A stretch of 64,000 bases of DNA. It comes from Actinotalea sp. Marseille-Q4924 (lineage in GTDB: Bacteria > Actinomycetota > Actinomycetes > Actinomycetales > Cellulomonadaceae). The stretch is taken from contig NZ_CAKAKB010000003.1 of assembly GCF_916618755.1 (NCBI RefSeq), positions 1,116,001 to 1,180,000 of the forward strand. Reading direction: 5' to 3'. Positions 12,684-64,000 of the stretch are shown here, piece by piece. The position numbers and the translations under genes are program-made. The notes beneath the pieces are model-generated. The model made no database searches. It was given only the letters and a program-made list of their open reading frames with translations, and was not told where the DNA came from. Numbering within the stretch: the first letter of the stretch is position 1; each line of letters opens with the position of its first letter.

Positions 12684-13925
12684 ATGTCCTCCTCGAGCAC
12701 GCCCGACCGGCCGCGCGGACCCCGCCGGACCGCCGTCGTCATGGCGGCCCTCCTGGTCCCCGCGGCCCTCGCCACGGTCGCGGGGCTCGTGCTGCTGTGG
12801 CCGTCGGGCGACCGTCCGTCGACCGGCGTCGTGGCCGTCGACGCCGAGTACCCGCGCGCGGACGTGGTCCAGGCGCGCGAGGAGTCCTGCGGCGGCACGA
12901 GCGAGGACCGCCTGCCGGACGGCACCGTGCCCGAGCAGGTGCGCTGCGTCAGCGTCGTCGTCGAGGTGCTGGACGGCGACGCCGCGGGTGAGGAGGTCCA
13001 GGTGTGGGCCCTGCCGACGCTCACGGTGGCGGACCTGCCCGTCGGCACGCGCGTCGTGCTGGAGCGCTACCTGGCGACGGACACCGAGGAGGAGGCGTGG
13101 GCGTTCCACGACGTCGCCAGGACCGCGCCCCTCGGTGTCCTCGCCGCGGCGTTCGCCGTCGTCGTCGTCGCCGTGGCGGGCCTGCGCGGGCTGCGCGCGA
13201 TCGTCGGCCTCGCGATCGCGTTCTCCGTGGTGGCGGTGTTCATGCTGCCCGCGCTGCTGGAGGGACGCGACCCCCTGGCGGTGGGCCTCGCCGGCAGCGC
13301 GGCCATCATGTTCGTCGTCCTCTACCTGGCCCACGGGTTCTCGCTCCGCACGACGACGGCGCTCCTGGGCACCTTCGCGGGGCTGGGCGTCACCGCGGCG
13401 CTCGGGGTGCTGGCCGCGAACGCGGCCCGGCTCAGCGGCGTGACGACGGAGGACGAGTACCGCCTGGCGCAGCTGACCGGCCAGCTCGACGGGTCGCAGC
13501 TGCGCGGGCTGTTCCTCTGCGGTGTGGTCCTCGCCGGGCTCGGGGTGCTCAACGACGTGACGATCACCCAGGCCTCCGCCGTGTGGGAGCTCCGCGCGGC
13601 GGACGCGGACGCGACCCCGGCCTCGCTCTTCCGCGGCGGGATGCGCATCGGGCGCGACCACATCGCCTCGACCGTCTACACGATCGCGTTCGCGTACGCC
13701 GGCGCCGCGCTGCCCGTGCTGCTGCTGCTCGAGGTCTACCAGCTGCCGTGGGCCCTGACGATCGGCAGCGGGGAGTTCGCGCAGGAGATCGCGCGGACCC
13801 TGGTCGGCTCCATCGGCCTGGTGCTCGCCATCCCGCTGACGACGGCGATCGCCGCGGCCGTCGTCACGCGTCTGCCGCTGCGGCAGGTGCGCCGGGAGGG
13901 CTCGACGCACGCCCACGCCCACTGA
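12684..13925 (+). CDS. YibE/F-like multipass membrane protein (paralogue A)
   Basis: A 413-residue membrane protein. One N-terminal helix (residues about 15-40) is followed by a small extracytoplasmic beta-rich domain and then about seven membrane spans. The block [17 protein letters not shown] and [18 protein letters not shown] is the signature of the YibE/F family, whose function is not established. The tail ends HAHAH, possibly metal-binding. Its last 62 bp overlap the convergent paralogue at 13864-15108. Confidence 0.82.
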   Translation: MSSSSTPDRPRGPRRTAVVMAALLVPAALATVAGLVLLWPSGDRPSTGVVAVDAEYPRADVVQAREESCGGTSEDRLPDGTVPEQVRCVSVVVEVLDGDAAGEEVQVWALPTLTVADLPVGTRVVLERYLATDTEEEAWAFHDVARTAPLGVLAAAFAVVVVAVAGLRGLRAIVGLAIAFSVVAVFMLPALLEGRDPLAVGLAGSAAIMFVVLYLAHGFSLRTTTALLGTFAGLGVTAALGVLAANAARLSGVTTEDEYRLAQLTGQLDGSQLRGLFLCGVVLAGLGVLNDVTITQASAVWELRAADADATPASLFRGGMRIGRDHIASTVYTIAFAYAGAALPVLLLLEVYQLPWALTIGSGEFAQEIARTLVGSIGLVLAIPLTTAIAAAVVTRLPLRQVRREGSTHAHAH

Positions 13926-24506: not shown

Positions 24507-25517
24507 TCAGGGGGCGCAGGGCTCGTAGGACTCCTCGCGCGTCCCGCCGCAGGTCATCGCGAACCTCTCGTACTCGGTGCCGATCCCCGAGACGGAGTAC
24601 AGCTCGTCGCACGCGGCCGCCTCGCCGCCGCCGCAGGCGTCCCAGAGCGCGTCCAGCCCGGGGTCGTCGCCGTACGTCCCCGCGTCGTCGGACGACCCGG
24701 GCAGGGAGCCGCCGAGCTCGACGGAGCACAGGCTGGTGCCGTCCGTCCGCCCGCCGCAGGTCTCGCCGAACCGCTCGTACTCGGTCCCGCCGCCCGACTC
24801 GAAGTAGAGGTCGTCGCACGCGTCCCAGTCCTCGGCCGCGCAGGCGTCCCAGAGCGCGTCCAGCGCCGGGTCGTCGCCGTACGTCTCGCCGCCGAGGTCC
24901 CACACCGCACCCGGACGGTCGACGGCGGGGTCCGTCACGTCGACGGCGGCGCGGAACGCGCTCAGGCCCACCAGCACCACCCCCACCGCTCCGACCAGCA
25001 CGAGACCGACCACCCCGAGCACCACCCACAGCACGGTGCGCGAGGAGCGGGCCGGCACCGGCGCGGGGCTCCAGGGCCCACCGGGCGGTCCGGCGTACTG
25101 CGCCGGCGGTTCGGCGTACTGCGCCGGCGGTTCGGCGTACTGCGCCGGCGGGCCGCCGTACTGCGCGCCCTGACCGCCGTACAGCGTGCCCTGGCCGCCG
25201 TACGGCGCAGCCTGGCCGGCGAACGGGCCGCCGTCGTGCGTGGCGGCACCGCCGACCTGGGCCGTCGACACCGCCCACGGCGCAGGCTCGTCGTCCTCCA
25301 CCCCGTCGGGAACCGCCCCGGCGCGCCGGCGCAGCGCGGTGTCGACCGCGGGCTCGCCGAGCGAGGCGAGCCACTGCAGGAGGCCCGGGTAGGCCGCGGG
25401 GTTGAGGGCGACGACGGGGCGCAGGTCCTCGCGCAGGGCAGCGATGTCGGCGAGGGTCTGCTGCGGCGTGGAGGGGTCCGCCGCCTGCAGACGCGTGTAC
25501 TCCTCGGGTGCGGTCAC
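24507..25517 (-). CDS. Membrane-anchored protein with LRV-type N-terminus and extracellular Cys repeats
   Basis: A 336-residue protein. The N-terminal 60 residues (DLRPVVALNPAAYPGLLQWL) resemble a leucine-rich-repeat-variant domain. A Gly/Pro/Tyr/Gln-rich cytoplasmic linker follows, with a 7-residue repeat AEPPAQY in tandem (21-bp DNA repeats near 25085-25160). There is one membrane helix (around residues 160-185). Outside lie two copies of a roughly 45-residue module: TYGDDPxLDALWDAC ... CDxLYxxSGxGTEYERFxxTCGG. Each has paired Cys. The start GTG has GGAGGAG upstream. The function is unknown. Confidence 0.78.
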   Translation of the reverse strand: MTAPEEYTRLQAADPSTPQQTLADIAALREDLRPVVALNPAAYPGLLQWLASLGEPAVDTALRRRAGAVPDGVEDDEPAPWAVSTAQVGGAATHDGGPFAGQAAPYGGQGTLYGGQGAQYGGPPAQYAEPPAQYAEPPAQYAGPPGGPWSPAPVPARSSRTVLWVVLGVVGLVLVGAVGVVLVGLSAFRAAVDVTDPAVDRPGAVWDLGGETYGDDPALDALWDACAAEDWDACDDLYFESGGGTEYERFGETCGGRTDGTSLCSVELGGSLPGSSDDAGTYGDDPGLDALWDACGGGEAAACDELYSVSGIGTEYERFAMTCGGTREESYEPCAP

Positions 25518-60364: not shown

Positions 60365-60399
60365 TGGAGCTGAGGGGACTCGAACCCCTGACCCCCTGA
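60365..60399 (-). tRNA. 3' fragment of a tRNA-Ala-like gene (probable att site)
   Basis: On the minus strand the last 35 nt read as anticodon-stem 3' strand, variable loop, T-arm (AGGGGTTCGAGTCCCCT) and acceptor CAGCTCC plus A. CAGCTCC would pair with GGGGCTG, giving the G3-U70 pair of tRNA-Ala. No D-arm or anticodon arm is present to the right. This is what remains when an element integrates into a tRNA 3' end; the complete copy should lie beyond the right edge. Confidence 0.75.
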
Positions 60400-61296
60400 A
60401 GGGGCCGGGCTGGCTCTAGACCAGACCGGCGGTCGAGATCTCGCGGGCTTCCTCGTCTTGTCTCGTCGATGAGCAGGGCCGATGTCCGAACGGGCATCGG
60501 TGGCGGTTGGAGGGTATCGACTTCTTTCGCCTCTTCTCGAGCCCGCTCGTGACGTCTTTGTGTCCATTTTCTGTCCACTGGTCGCCGACGGGAACCCCGA
60601 TAGCGATCGCCGCCGGGCGACGGCACCGGCCGACCACGCGGCGGACCAACCCGACCCAGTGACGTCGGTTGCCTCGCAACGTCGACCACGTCGCTCTGCG
60701 CGAGAGCCCCCTGATCCGTTGGGAGAGGCCACGGGGAGGTGGACGACCACTCGGTGACGACGTGGAGGGCTGTCCAATGTGGAGCGAAGGTCGCCCGCGT
60801 CCGACTCAGGGATGTCGCGATCCCGAAGGCCGCCGCCTTGTTCAGGGGCGGCGGCCTGGTCCGCGCGGACCTTGCGGTCCGGACGTCAACCGGGCCTCAC
60901 CAGCTCGGCTGTGGAAGAGGCCTCTCGGGTAAGGAGCGGCCCCGTCTCCTCACTGTACGCCGAGAGCCCACCGTCCTGGCACCTTTGTCGACGGCTCTCT
61001 GCCACAGGAGGCCGATCTCCCGTTCGAGACTTTGCGGTGGGCGGCAACCCCAACCGGTCAGCTCATGGCGCGGTCGCTGACGACAGCGCTACCTGACCGC
61101 GGCGGTGGTGACCGGGCGATACCCGGCCTGGTCCTCCACCACCCTCGACGCTTGCTCAACACCCTCTCGCCAGGACGGCACGCACTGTGGCTGGCCCGTC
61201 GGGTTGGCCGGGACTGCTGCGCGTCGCGGCGCGCCAGCCGACACCCTGCCGGGCCGCCAGCTCCCCCGTGTCAGCGGGGCGACGCACACTGATCCC
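60400..61296. other. No supported gene; left end of probable integrated element
   Basis: Here GC falls, third-position bias is lost and no frame shows a recognisable protein. TGTCCA occurs twice 11 bp apart (60561-60566, 60572-60577), resembling arm-type integrase sites. Otherwise I see nothing. Confidence 0.55.
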
Positions 61297-61610: not shown

Positions 61611-61817
61611 TCAGGCTGCGCCGCCGAACGGGCGCAGCAGTGCCGTGACGTCGCTGCGGCGGATGCGGACGATGCGGGTGCCGACCTTCACTGCCCGGAG
61701 CTCACCGCTGGCGATGAGCTGACGGACGAAGCGCTCGGTCACCTGCAGGTCCCGAGCGACGTCGGCGACGGTGACGAACGTCGATGGTGAGGTCTGGTGG
61801 ATCGATTCGGTGGCCAT
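61611..61817 (-). CDS. Excisionase-type helix-turn-helix protein
   Basis: A 68-residue protein. FVTVADVARDLQVTERFVRQL and SGELRAVKVG, then RIRRSDVTALL, is the HTH_17/excisionase fold. Start ATG (61817) follows GGGGGGA. In integrative elements such proteins direct excision or regulate transfer. It faces the repeat array at 61862-62038. Confidence 0.85.
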   Translation of the reverse strand: MATESIHQTSPSTFVTVADVARDLQVTERFVRQLIASGELRAVKVGTRIVRIRRSDVTALLRPFGGAA

Positions 61818-61861
61818 GGTCCCCCCAGAAGCGGAGTCGGTCCCTCGAGGGTCCTCAGGGC

Positions 61862-62038
61862 CGATAGCCAAACCGATGACGGGACAGAAAACCCGCTAGC
61901 GCGAGCGATGACGCCCCTGGGGATGACATAGCCGTCGCGATGACGCGGGCGATGGCTCCGCGTTCCGTCATCGCCGCGCCCTCGTGCCGTCATCGGGCCT
62001 GACCTGCAGGTTCGTCCGCGTCATCGCTACGGCTATCG
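61862..62038. repeat. Symmetric array of CGATGACG repeats bounded by CGATAGCC
   Basis: Six perfect CGATGACG octamers and one near copy: direct at 61874, 61906, 61921 (GGATGACA) and 61938; inverted at 61966, 61988 and 62019. CGATAGCC (61862-61869) and GGCTATCG (62031-62038) close it. The halves mirror about 61950: CGATAGCC-N4-CGATGACG-N23/24-CGATGACG. It fills the gap between the divergent HTH gene and the 290-residue gene. Candidate origin, oriT or multi-operator. Confidence 0.85.
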
Positions 62039-62086
62039 CCGCTGAGCAGCGTCTTCGGTGTCCGTTCGAGACCGGAGGCGACGACG

Positions 62087-62959
62087 ATGACCCACGACAA
62101 CACGACACCGGCCGGCGTCTTGCCGGCCCGCGAGCAGCGGGGGGTGACCCGCGACAGGCAGGGGCTTCTCGACGCACTCGCGCTTGTGGACGCGCACGGT
62201 TGGGACAGCGAGCCCGCGACCGATCTGCTGACGCAGATCCGGTACGAGCTCATCCGACCGTTGACGATCGACATCGGCCTGCGCGGCACCGCCGCGGCCC
62301 AGGCCGAGGCCAGCGCGTGGGAGACGGTGTGGCTCAAGCTGTGCGACCCCCACCTGCGCTCCGCAACTTCTCCGTGGGGAGTGATCTGGCAGACCGCCCG
62401 GCGCGCCGTCCTTGCCGAGGTCCTCGCCGCCCGGTGGGGCACGGAGACCCGACGGGCTTGGGAGCACAACGCCGAAGAGCGCACCGGACGACGCGCTCGG
62501 CCGATCCGCCTGGAGCCGCTTCTCGCGTCCGGCTACGACACGGCCGACCCGAGCCCACCGCCAGAGCCGGCGCCAGGAGCCCCCGTGGCGTCGGCGCTGC
62601 AGTTGGCCGCCGACGCCTTGACCCAGGCCGGCTGGGACGCCGTCGAGGCGAGACGGATCGTCGCCGAGGTGGCCCTCATGGATGAGGCGCTGGGCCGCGG
62701 CGCGACCGTCGTGGGATGGCGGCCACTCGCCGCCCGGCTCGCGCTGCCCCCGTGGCAGGCACGCAGGCTGACGTACCTGCTGCGCGGGTCGGTCGACCGC
62801 CCCGGCCTGCTCGCACGGCTCATCGCCGAAGGTCCGCACATCATCCACGCCGTGGAGCTGCGTGAGGCGATGGCCGCGACGCGCTCGCGCACGCTGCCCA
62901 CACCGACCCAGCGCTGCTTCGCCGCCCGCGGCTCCCGTCCACAGGGGCTCGCGTGCTGA
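62087..62959 (+). CDS. Hypothetical protein (290 aa) of the element
   Basis: ATG (62087) with GGAGG 8 nt upstream. The N-terminal half contains a helical region (LLDALALVDAHGWDSEPATDLLTQIRYELIRPL; ETVWLKLCDPHLRSATSPWG), the middle is Pro-rich, the C-terminal part has GRGATVVGWRPLAARLALPPWQARRLTYLLRG, which resembles a helix-turn-helix. A DNA-binding or replication-regulating role is possible but I do not recognise the family. Confidence 0.7.
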   Translation: MTHDNTTPAGVLPAREQRGVTRDRQGLLDALALVDAHGWDSEPATDLLTQIRYELIRPLTIDIGLRGTAAAQAEASAWETVWLKLCDPHLRSATSPWGVIWQTARRAVLAEVLAARWGTETRRAWEHNAEERTGRRARPIRLEPLLASGYDTADPSPPPEPAPGAPVASALQLAADALTQAGWDAVEARRIVAEVALMDEALGRGATVVGWRPLAARLALPPWQARRLTYLLRGSVDRPGLLARLIAEGPHIIHAVELREAMAATRSRTLPTPTQRCFAARGSRPQGLAC

Positions 62960-63176: not shown

Positions 63177-63779
63177 ATGCCGAGACGAACAGGGCTGACA
63201 CCGTACGCAGCGGCACTGGTGTGCGCCGCCGTCATGGGCGCAGGGGGATGCTCGGTCGCCGCGCCCGCTCAGACTCCGGTGCCAACGGCGACGCTCAGGA
63301 CACCCCCGTCGCAGGAGCCAACCCCCACCGCTGAACCGACAGCCACGGTCGACCCAGCCGTGGCCGAGGCGGAGGCGGCCGTGCTCGCGGCATACCGCAC
63401 CTACTGGGAGGTCTCGGCAGCCGCGCTCGCCGACCCCCTCGCTCCCCTGCCACAGGACTTCGATCGCTTCATCGTCGACAAGGCGAGAGCGGGCCTGGCG
63501 GAGTCGCTGCTGTGGGCCGAGCAGAACGACGTCAAGATGGTCGGTGCGCCGATGATCTCGCCGTCGGTCGAATCACTCGTCCTCGAGGGCGAGCAGGCCG
63601 CGCACGTCGTGGACTGCGTGGACTCCACCGACTGGATCCTCACCCATCGCGAGACCGGCGACCCCGCGTCGTCCGCAACCAACCAGAACACTCGAGTGAC
63701 AGCCGACGCGTGGGCCACCGTCTACGACGGTCGCTGGGTCATCCGCGAGGTGACGCTGAACCGGGAGGAGCCGTGCTGA
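63177..63779 (+). CDS. Secreted lipoprotein (200 aa) of the element
   Basis: ATG (63177) preceded by AAGGGGGA. Signal peptide with lipobox GAGGC (Cys around residue 25), Thr/Pro-rich linker (PTPTAEPTATVDPAV), then a small domain beginning AVLAAYRTYWEVSAAAL and ending WATVYDGRWVIREVTLN, a pattern seen in lipoproteins encoded in actinobacterial conjugative elements. The next gene overlaps its end. Confidence 0.75.
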   Translation: MPRRTGLTPYAAALVCAAVMGAGGCSVAAPAQTPVPTATLRTPPSQEPTPTAEPTATVDPAVAEAEAAVLAAYRTYWEVSAAALADPLAPLPQDFDRFIVDKARAGLAESLLWAEQNDVKMVGAPMISPSVESLVLEGEQAAHVVDCVDSTDWILTHRETGDPASSATNQNTRVTADAWATVYDGRWVIREVTLNREEPC

Positions 63780-64000
63780 GGGGGGTCGCGAGCTGCCTCG
63801 CGGTCACGGCGTCCCTGATCGTCACCGTCGCGTCCCCTGCCCTCGCCGCTCCCGGCGTCGAATGTCCACCCACGATCATCAACTGCGAGATCGAAGCGGA
63901 GACCCCGGGAACGCCTGGCAACTCCGGCCCGAACGCGCCGACCACACCCATCAGCGACGGGCAGTGCAGGACTGCCACCGGCAACGTCGTGCCTTGCTGG
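63773..64000 (+). CDS. Secreted Cys-rich protein, partial
   Basis: GTG (63773) overlaps the lipoprotein stop by 7 nt. Signal peptide (VASCLAVTASLIVTVASPALAA, about residue 26) then a mature region with Cys in VECPPTIINCEIEAE and a Gly/Pro/Asn linker, continuing past the window edge. Coupled expression with the lipoprotein suggests a joint surface role. Confidence 0.65.
   Translation, partial: MLRGVASCLAVTASLIVTVASPALAAPGVECPPTIINCEIEAETPGTPGNSGPNAPTTPISDGQCRTATGNVVPCW

Follow-up and report, generated by a model that had tools for sequence, protein, structure and literature searches.

The DNA analyzed here, referred to as the window, is a 64-kb stretch that forms part of contig C3 of a 3.64-Mb genome. 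Close to its right end, six exact CGATGACG octamers lie within 153 bp, between a gene for a small protein of the HTH_17/excisionase type (the HTH gene) and a gene for a protein of 290 residues (F0). The first-pass annotation placed the array in the divergent gap of an excisionase-like gene, and the flanking genes are indeed divergent. The genes and associated elements beside the array are as follows.

61611..61817, minus strand: divergent gene for a 68-residue DNA-binding protein of the excisionase/HTH_17 type (Pfam HTH_17, 4.2e-10; NCBIfam excise, 8.4e-12)
62057..62073, plus strand: possible 5' leader hairpin just upstream of the ribosome-binding site, modestly supported
62074-62078, plus strand: ribosome-binding site GGAGG of the 290-residue gene
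62087..62959, plus strand: 290-residue leader gene of the pilus operon (F0), tentatively of sigma-factor-like fold in a predicted model
63177..63779, plus strand: F2, second gene of the operon, lipoprotein-like (label from the N-terminus only)
63773..64000, plus strand: start of F7, third gene of the operon, a reading frame that continues past the window

F0 had no match above chance level in Pfam or NCBIfam, and no sigma family profile was found among 40 F0 members scanned against Pfam. In 24 of 40 F0 leaders, a hairpin (GGTGTCnnnnnGACACC) could be placed just before or over the ribosome-binding site, with 84.7% of 144 cells paired and 8 cells altered on both sides (3.7 in shuffles); these counts lean towards a hairpin because the 24 leaders were chosen by hand for visible GTGTC/GACAC similarity. 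Leader folding gave a mean z of only -1.25 (37 leaders).

The window copy of the operon keeps F0, F2, and F7, and no later pilus genes (the Tad machinery) follow F7 in the 54 kb read beyond it. The array had been assigned to a mobile element. The analysis did not bear this out: the array is flanked by a pilus operon that is cut short, and the mobile island (G000:C3:1180700-1235000, comprising L005 from ~5.7 kb on, L006, and L007) starts beyond it, to the right. To judge from their sequences, several genes of this island are transposase-like, one is relaxase-like, and others are metal-transport-like. No tRNA was found by ARAGORN at the left edge, and Rfam gave sub-threshold matches only, among them a weak tRNA-like match to the mascRNA family (E 0.21) at window positions 60366-60428 on the minus strand, near the left end of the cluster.

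The octamer array

The six copies of CGATGACG, all exact matches and called boxes below, are arranged as follows.

61874..61881, plus strand: box 1, upstream repeat of the predicted HTH-gene promoter
61906..61913, plus strand: box 2, inner
61938..61945, plus strand: box 3, inner, with a GGCTAT partner repeat and without a -10 element
61966..61973, minus strand: box 4, inner
61988..61995, minus strand: box 5, inner
62019..62026, minus strand: box 6, upstream repeat of the predicted pilus-operon promoter

The octamer occurs 13 times in the window (shuffles gave a mean of 5.15 and at most 11). In first-order resamples of the window, no 160-bp span held more than two copies (exceeded in 0 of 200), and by the same 160-bp measure the array is the densest octamer cluster present, which agrees with the earlier description of six exact copies at a density unmatched elsewhere in the window. 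The runner-up is CGGCGATC, with five copies near 13843; a further cluster, of GCGCAGTA/CGGCGCAG, lies at 25094-25154. The array is closed, as had been noted, by an inverted pair (CGATAGCC at 61862-61869 and GGCTATCG at 62031-62038). Its halves had also been described as mirrored with matched spacing; the orientations do mirror each other, whereas the spacings do not match exactly: from start to start they are 32, 32, 28 (spanning the inversion), 22, and 31 bp.

Pilus loci and conservation of the boxes

A single-sequence scan found F0 homologues in 37 of 221 genomes of the family. In the order, F0 was found in 3 of 297 genomes in a first scan with a single protein sequence and in 18 of 396 genomes with a profile; one scan of genome contigs gave 1 locus, and phage and plasmid records gave no match. 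In relatives with long flanks, F0 is followed by F2 (lipoprotein-like), F7 (secreted-protein-like), a SAF-domain/CpaB-like gene, a CpaE-like gene, a gene for a TadA-type ATPase, genes for two T2SSF-type proteins and a small membrane protein, TadE, a gene that we take to be TadG-like, and a gene for a large protein with LysM and BTAD domains (F33). T2SSE, T2SSF, and TadE genes were found in the relatives and in a second locus of the window's own genome, the CpaB-like and CpaE-like NCBIfam matches lying below their own cut-offs. The small membrane gene (F9, 69-77 residues), examined as a possible Flp prepilin, matched only families of unknown function, below cut-off. Because TadA-type, T2SSF-type, TadE, and CpaB/CpaE-like genes follow F0, the operon that it heads in relatives is, to judge from gene content, a Tad/Flp (type IVc) pilus operon. 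Actinobacterial Tad/Flp loci, such as that behind Flp-dependent transformation (PMC4322843, in the part available), share TadA-, TadB/C-, TadE-, CpaB-, and CpaE-like genes in one operon; the loci described here differ from them in the leaders F0, F2, and F7 and in the LysM-SARP gene at the end.

Fourteen F0 loci of the family were compared, and 10 of them have Tad genes as far as they were read. One is broken after the CpaE-like gene (L051), and three, including the window copy, have no machinery genes (the others are L012 and L047). The window's own genome carries a complete second pilus locus on contig C1. At one complete pilus locus, a tyrosine integrase gene (L043:8197-9375) lies directly left of the HTH gene, and the site beside that gene may be an insertion hot spot. 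Distant F0 relatives occur at L088, L090, L092, L096, and L097, in other families of the order and, in one case, in the same family. Because these presumably precede a ParB-like gene in conjugative-element-like neighborhoods, the F0 family extends beyond pilus loci.

Absence of the array from related elements with the same flanking genes had been named as the result that would speak against it. Instead, exact boxes recur upstream of F0 homologues down to ~35% identity within the same family. Over 43 loci, the promoter-proximal box had a mean of 3.0 further copies in the 200 bp upstream, versus 0.48 in resamples and 0.86 with swapped boxes; where the box differs by at least two bases (n = 17), there were 2.0 further copies versus 0.29. 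In lineages with an altered promoter-proximal box (for example CGTCAGGC, GGTCAGAC, or TGTCACCG), the upstream copies show the same alteration; loci of the L056 type have GGTCAGGG. Repetition fell short of p<0.05 in 12 of the 43 loci (L014, L015, L032, and L033 among them). Same-orientation neighbors in 21 distinct arrays mostly lie a whole number of helical turns apart (R 0.72 at 10.75 bp, from 35 distances), and none of 5000 random sets reached so high a value, the arrays of related genomes not being fully independent. One locus (L016, on the same contig as L012) was left out of all sets after the homologue listing. Two others (L012, a near-duplicate of the window type, and L063, a fragment) were left out of the promoter alignment, of the scoring of the divergent promoter, and of the box-repetition and -10 tests, and L012 alone out of one further set.

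Promoter geometry at the ends of the array

Alignment of the upstream regions of F0 (n = 43, of which 40 scored well and 3 poorly) placed the box in columns 0-7 and a second conserved block in columns 12-18; an A at column 29 and a T at column 33 (A29 and T33) are invariant in the 40 well-scoring promoters. Columns 0-10, 11-21, and 28-33 reproduce the published geometry of AfsR, base for base. At the AfsR promoter, as described in the available part of PMC10936776, 11-bp repeats occupy -40 to -30 and -29 to -19, and the -10 element is CACTGT; we infer from the scaffold description there that this hexamer ends at -7. The AfsR half-site is given as CGTT(T/C)ATCGNN in the available part of PMC10972967. 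In 40 of the 43 aligned promoters, 11-bp repeats overlap the -35 region, the partner repeat being degenerate. In the window, the elements at the two ends of the array are placed as follows.

61848..61881, minus strand: predicted SARP-type promoter for the HTH gene (repeats 61881-61871, upstream, and 61870-61860, downstream; -10 GACCCT 61853-61848)
near 61841, minus strand: predicted start of the HTH-gene transcript, placed by AfsR geometry
62019..62052, plus strand: predicted SARP-type promoter for the 290-residue gene and pilus operon (repeats 62019-62029 and 62030-62040, -10 CAGCGT 62047-62052)
near 62059, plus strand: predicted start of the pilus-operon transcript

In each outer site, few positions of the downstream GGCTATC agree with the upstream GTCATCG, which makes the "direct repeat" of window-type sites a degenerate one.

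We then asked about the -10 element with sites picked on columns 0-18 only, that is, with no -10 information. On the pilus side, A29 and T33 were both present in 39 of the 40 loci scoring at least 8 (43 scanned; 1.1 expected). On the divergent side, where 32 of the 43 loci reached a score of at least 8, both were present in 14 of 18 loci with an HTH gene (0.48 expected) and in 0 of 14 without one. With the same test displaced by up to 10 bp backward or 19 bp forward, 0-3 loci had both. The mean score of the divergent promoter was 15.0 in the 22 HTH-bearing loci, 2.5 in the 21 others, and about -6.6 in resamples. The contrast between 14 of 18 and 0 of 14 therefore indicates that loci with an HTH gene to transcribe have a second promoter of this design, pointing the other way.

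Throughout the genome, the pattern CGTCATCN5GKCWATN11ANNNT has exactly four matches, on both sides of both pilus-type loci, and the reversed control pattern has none, even at two mismatches. Two of the places found at two mismatches (C3:1209751 and C4:262767) were considered as further genomic targets and taken as chance because they lie inside relaxase-like coding sequence; the protein concerned is presumably a relaxase/MobF, a label taken from its start. Among non-promoter exact boxes, 10 of 59 scored above 2 for a partner repeat, versus 2% of random positions; as most are without one, the inner boxes are not complete SARP sites. Candidate roles for them are the binding of single protomers, a contribution to cooperativity, and anchoring of the locus. 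After the F0 alignment, we also considered an ECF-type promoter (-35 G[GT]C[TA]AT and -10 CGTC) and dropped it, because its spacing is short and A29 and T33 fit a sigma-A -10 element at the AfsR distance.

The candidate activator and its rivals

Complete pilus operons end with the gene for F33, the large LysM/transmembrane protein. At 31 of 46 F0 places, F33 is 8-12 kb away, and 31 of 38 strong F33 matches have F0 nearby. F33 is absent beside the other 15 of the 46, several of which are contig edges, fragments, or truncated operons; one genome (G306) keeps F0 and the array and has no F33-like match at 1e-5. The C-terminus of F33 holds a BTAD domain, which scored 29.7 bits in the own-genome copy (cut-off 22.1); of two other members examined, one was over the cut-off and one had no match. 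In a predicted model, the C-terminal module appears as an OmpR-type winged helix followed by BTAD, the arrangement of a SARP, and matches AfsR and EmbR. This model, built from 27 sequences, has a mean pLDDT of 92.5. Its best PDB match is AfsR in an activation complex (Foldseek E 5.5e-8, TM 0.70; Z 15.0 over 219 residues, rmsd 4.5), followed by EmbR. Sequence searches of the PDB returned mainly TPR designs and no AfsR with the F33 alignment, and one weak unrelated chain with a single F33 sequence. Hydropathy profiles of three F33 proteins suggest three N-terminal membrane helices and a fourth, after which the next 15 residues carry a net positive charge of 5 to 7; in the F33 of L048, LysM falls between the third and fourth helix and BTAD at the C-terminus.

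Over 24 F0-F33 pairs, the distance between boxes correlated with the distance between the recognition helices of F33 (partial Mantel r 0.41, p 0.0012), with the rest of the module removed and shared ancestry corrected roughly; the pairs of L041, L059, and L029 were left out, one partner of each being missing from an alignment. Sliding windows over the F33 module placed all of the top 10 of 217 at residues 63-83, the predicted recognition helix. This covariation is the strongest pointer to F33 as the binder of the array, and, as far as sequence comparison can indicate, F33 is the likely binder. Neither the HTH protein nor the 290-residue protein, the two proposed for binding tests by the first-pass annotation, is likely to be the best candidate; that is F33, which is encoded outside the window.

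We consider it probable that the region is a bidirectional SARP-type promoter-operator of a Tad/Flp pilus locus, with F33 as its likely activator. Each outer box, with its partner repeat 11 bp downstream, would be an AfsR-type SARP activator site, followed after 6 bp by a sigma-A-like -10 hexamer with no good -35 element. One promoter would serve the 290-residue gene and the pilus operon, and the other the small HTH gene. The four inner boxes would be extra sites for the same activator, and their spacing by mostly whole helical turns would put its copies on one face of the DNA, where they could cooperate. F33 itself is predicted to have N-terminal membrane helices, the cell-wall-binding LysM domain outside, one more helix, and the winged helix and BTAD inside; at the truncated window copy, F33 from the complete second locus would act in trans. 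A cooperative operator was thus the only one of the four options first offered for the array that fits, probably in the specific form of a divergent SARP-type promoter-operator. A more speculative extension, which we put forward tentatively and regard as rather doubtful, is that F33 is a membrane-anchored SARP whose external LysM domain senses the state of the cell wall or pilus base and which, from its place in the membrane, acts directly on DNA. The phased multi-box array, which ends in a promoter on either side, would then capture the pilus locus at the membrane and give a switch-like, self-reinforcing response, and box and recognition helix would have changed together into private pairs in each lineage.

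The same promoter-operator could be served by another SARP, such as an AfsR-like global regulator. Four other proteins of the genome exceed the BTAD cut-off, and AfsR sites resemble the box, but the full promoter pattern is found at two pilus-type loci only, unlike a global regulon, and the box covaries with the F33 recognition helix. In G144, moreover, the sole BTAD match is F33, and G299 has no BTAD match although F33 is present; we judge another SARP improbable. It is somewhat less probable still that the array is an operator to which the HTH protein binds cooperatively to regulate its own gene. The HTH gene adjoins the array, encodes a member of a DNA-binding family, and is served by one of the array promoters. 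At 21 of 43 loci, however, scanning 1.5-2 kb upstream revealed no HTH gene, and several of these have full arrays; full arrays without a near HTH gene are those of L017, L023, L025, L028, L030, L043, and L050, of which L043 and L050 have one ~2 kb away. These loci weaken the case for the HTH protein, and two very different HTH types (those of the window and L045) adjoin one and the same box, CGTCATCG. For the HTH protein, the alignment used in the covariation control had lost the recognition helix.

If F0 were a real sigma factor, it could activate its own expression by reading these promoters, the boxes serving as -35-like elements. Its gene lies directly behind the promoter, and in structural comparison nearly all matches of the F0 model were sigma factors or RNA-polymerase complexes containing them (Z 8-10; residues 25-121 on region 2 of sigmaE, 4lup, Z 8.3, a middling value, over 91 residues, rmsd 2.9). 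The best Foldseek match to the PDB was weak (E 0.17), however, and such Z values may reflect a mere common helical arrangement; phased repeats of a -35 element would be unusual, and F0 was set aside as the binder of the array because its C-terminal helix-turn-helix did not covary with the box (partial r -0.09). We rate this reading a shade below the HTH operator. An iteron replication origin, a transfer origin, or a centromere of a mobile element, as also proposed at first, seems to us barely credible. Dense, helically spaced repeats and the mobile island further right, with its transposase-like and relaxase-like genes, would suit such an element. The array's neighbors, however, are pilus-locus genes rather than replication or transfer genes: no Rep-type family match was obtained for either flanking gene, the array adjoins no replication, partition, or relaxase gene, and the 290-residue protein is missing from the plasmid and phage records. 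We rejected these options on this neighborhood, on the conservation of the array at chromosomal pilus loci of many genomes, and on the promoter elements at both of its ends.

The closest known counterpart of a SARP-type promoter-operator with F33 is AfsR at the afsS promoter of Streptomyces (the available part of PMC10936776; PDB 8hvr and 8k60). It shares the two 11-bp repeats, the 6-bp gap, a poor -10 element with A at -11 and T at -7, and a weak -35 element; its half-site, CGTTCATCG, is close to the CGTCATCG of the pilus-type loci, and its winged-helix and BTAD fold is that predicted for the F33 module. It differs in its target, which is secondary metabolism rather than a pilus locus, in lacking the arrangement of two divergent promoters with extra phased boxes between them, and in having NOD and TPR domains where F33 has membrane helices and LysM. 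EmbR of Mycobacterium tuberculosis (PDB 2fez) shares the winged helix and BTAD (Z 14.6), with an FHA domain, according to the available part of PMC10936776, in place of LysM and membrane helices. SARP promoters are thus of a known kind, as are Tad loci. The open literature searched contained no instance of the two combined, of paired promoters with a phased array, or of a membrane-anchored LysM-SARP as regulator, and likewise gave no report joining SARP regulation to Tad pili; BTAD does not occur as a whole word in PMC12075869.

What is known of SARPs mainly concerns their activation of antibiotic gene clusters. If the reading proposed here is true, an AfsR-type mechanism also runs type IVc pili in a family of Actinobacteria, and the regulator concerned is a membrane protein whose cell-wall-binding part faces outward. 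This reading would then supply precise start sites, boxes, and a regulator for testing, and the natural regulator-operator pairs of differing specificity would offer a way to learn how SARPs read DNA.
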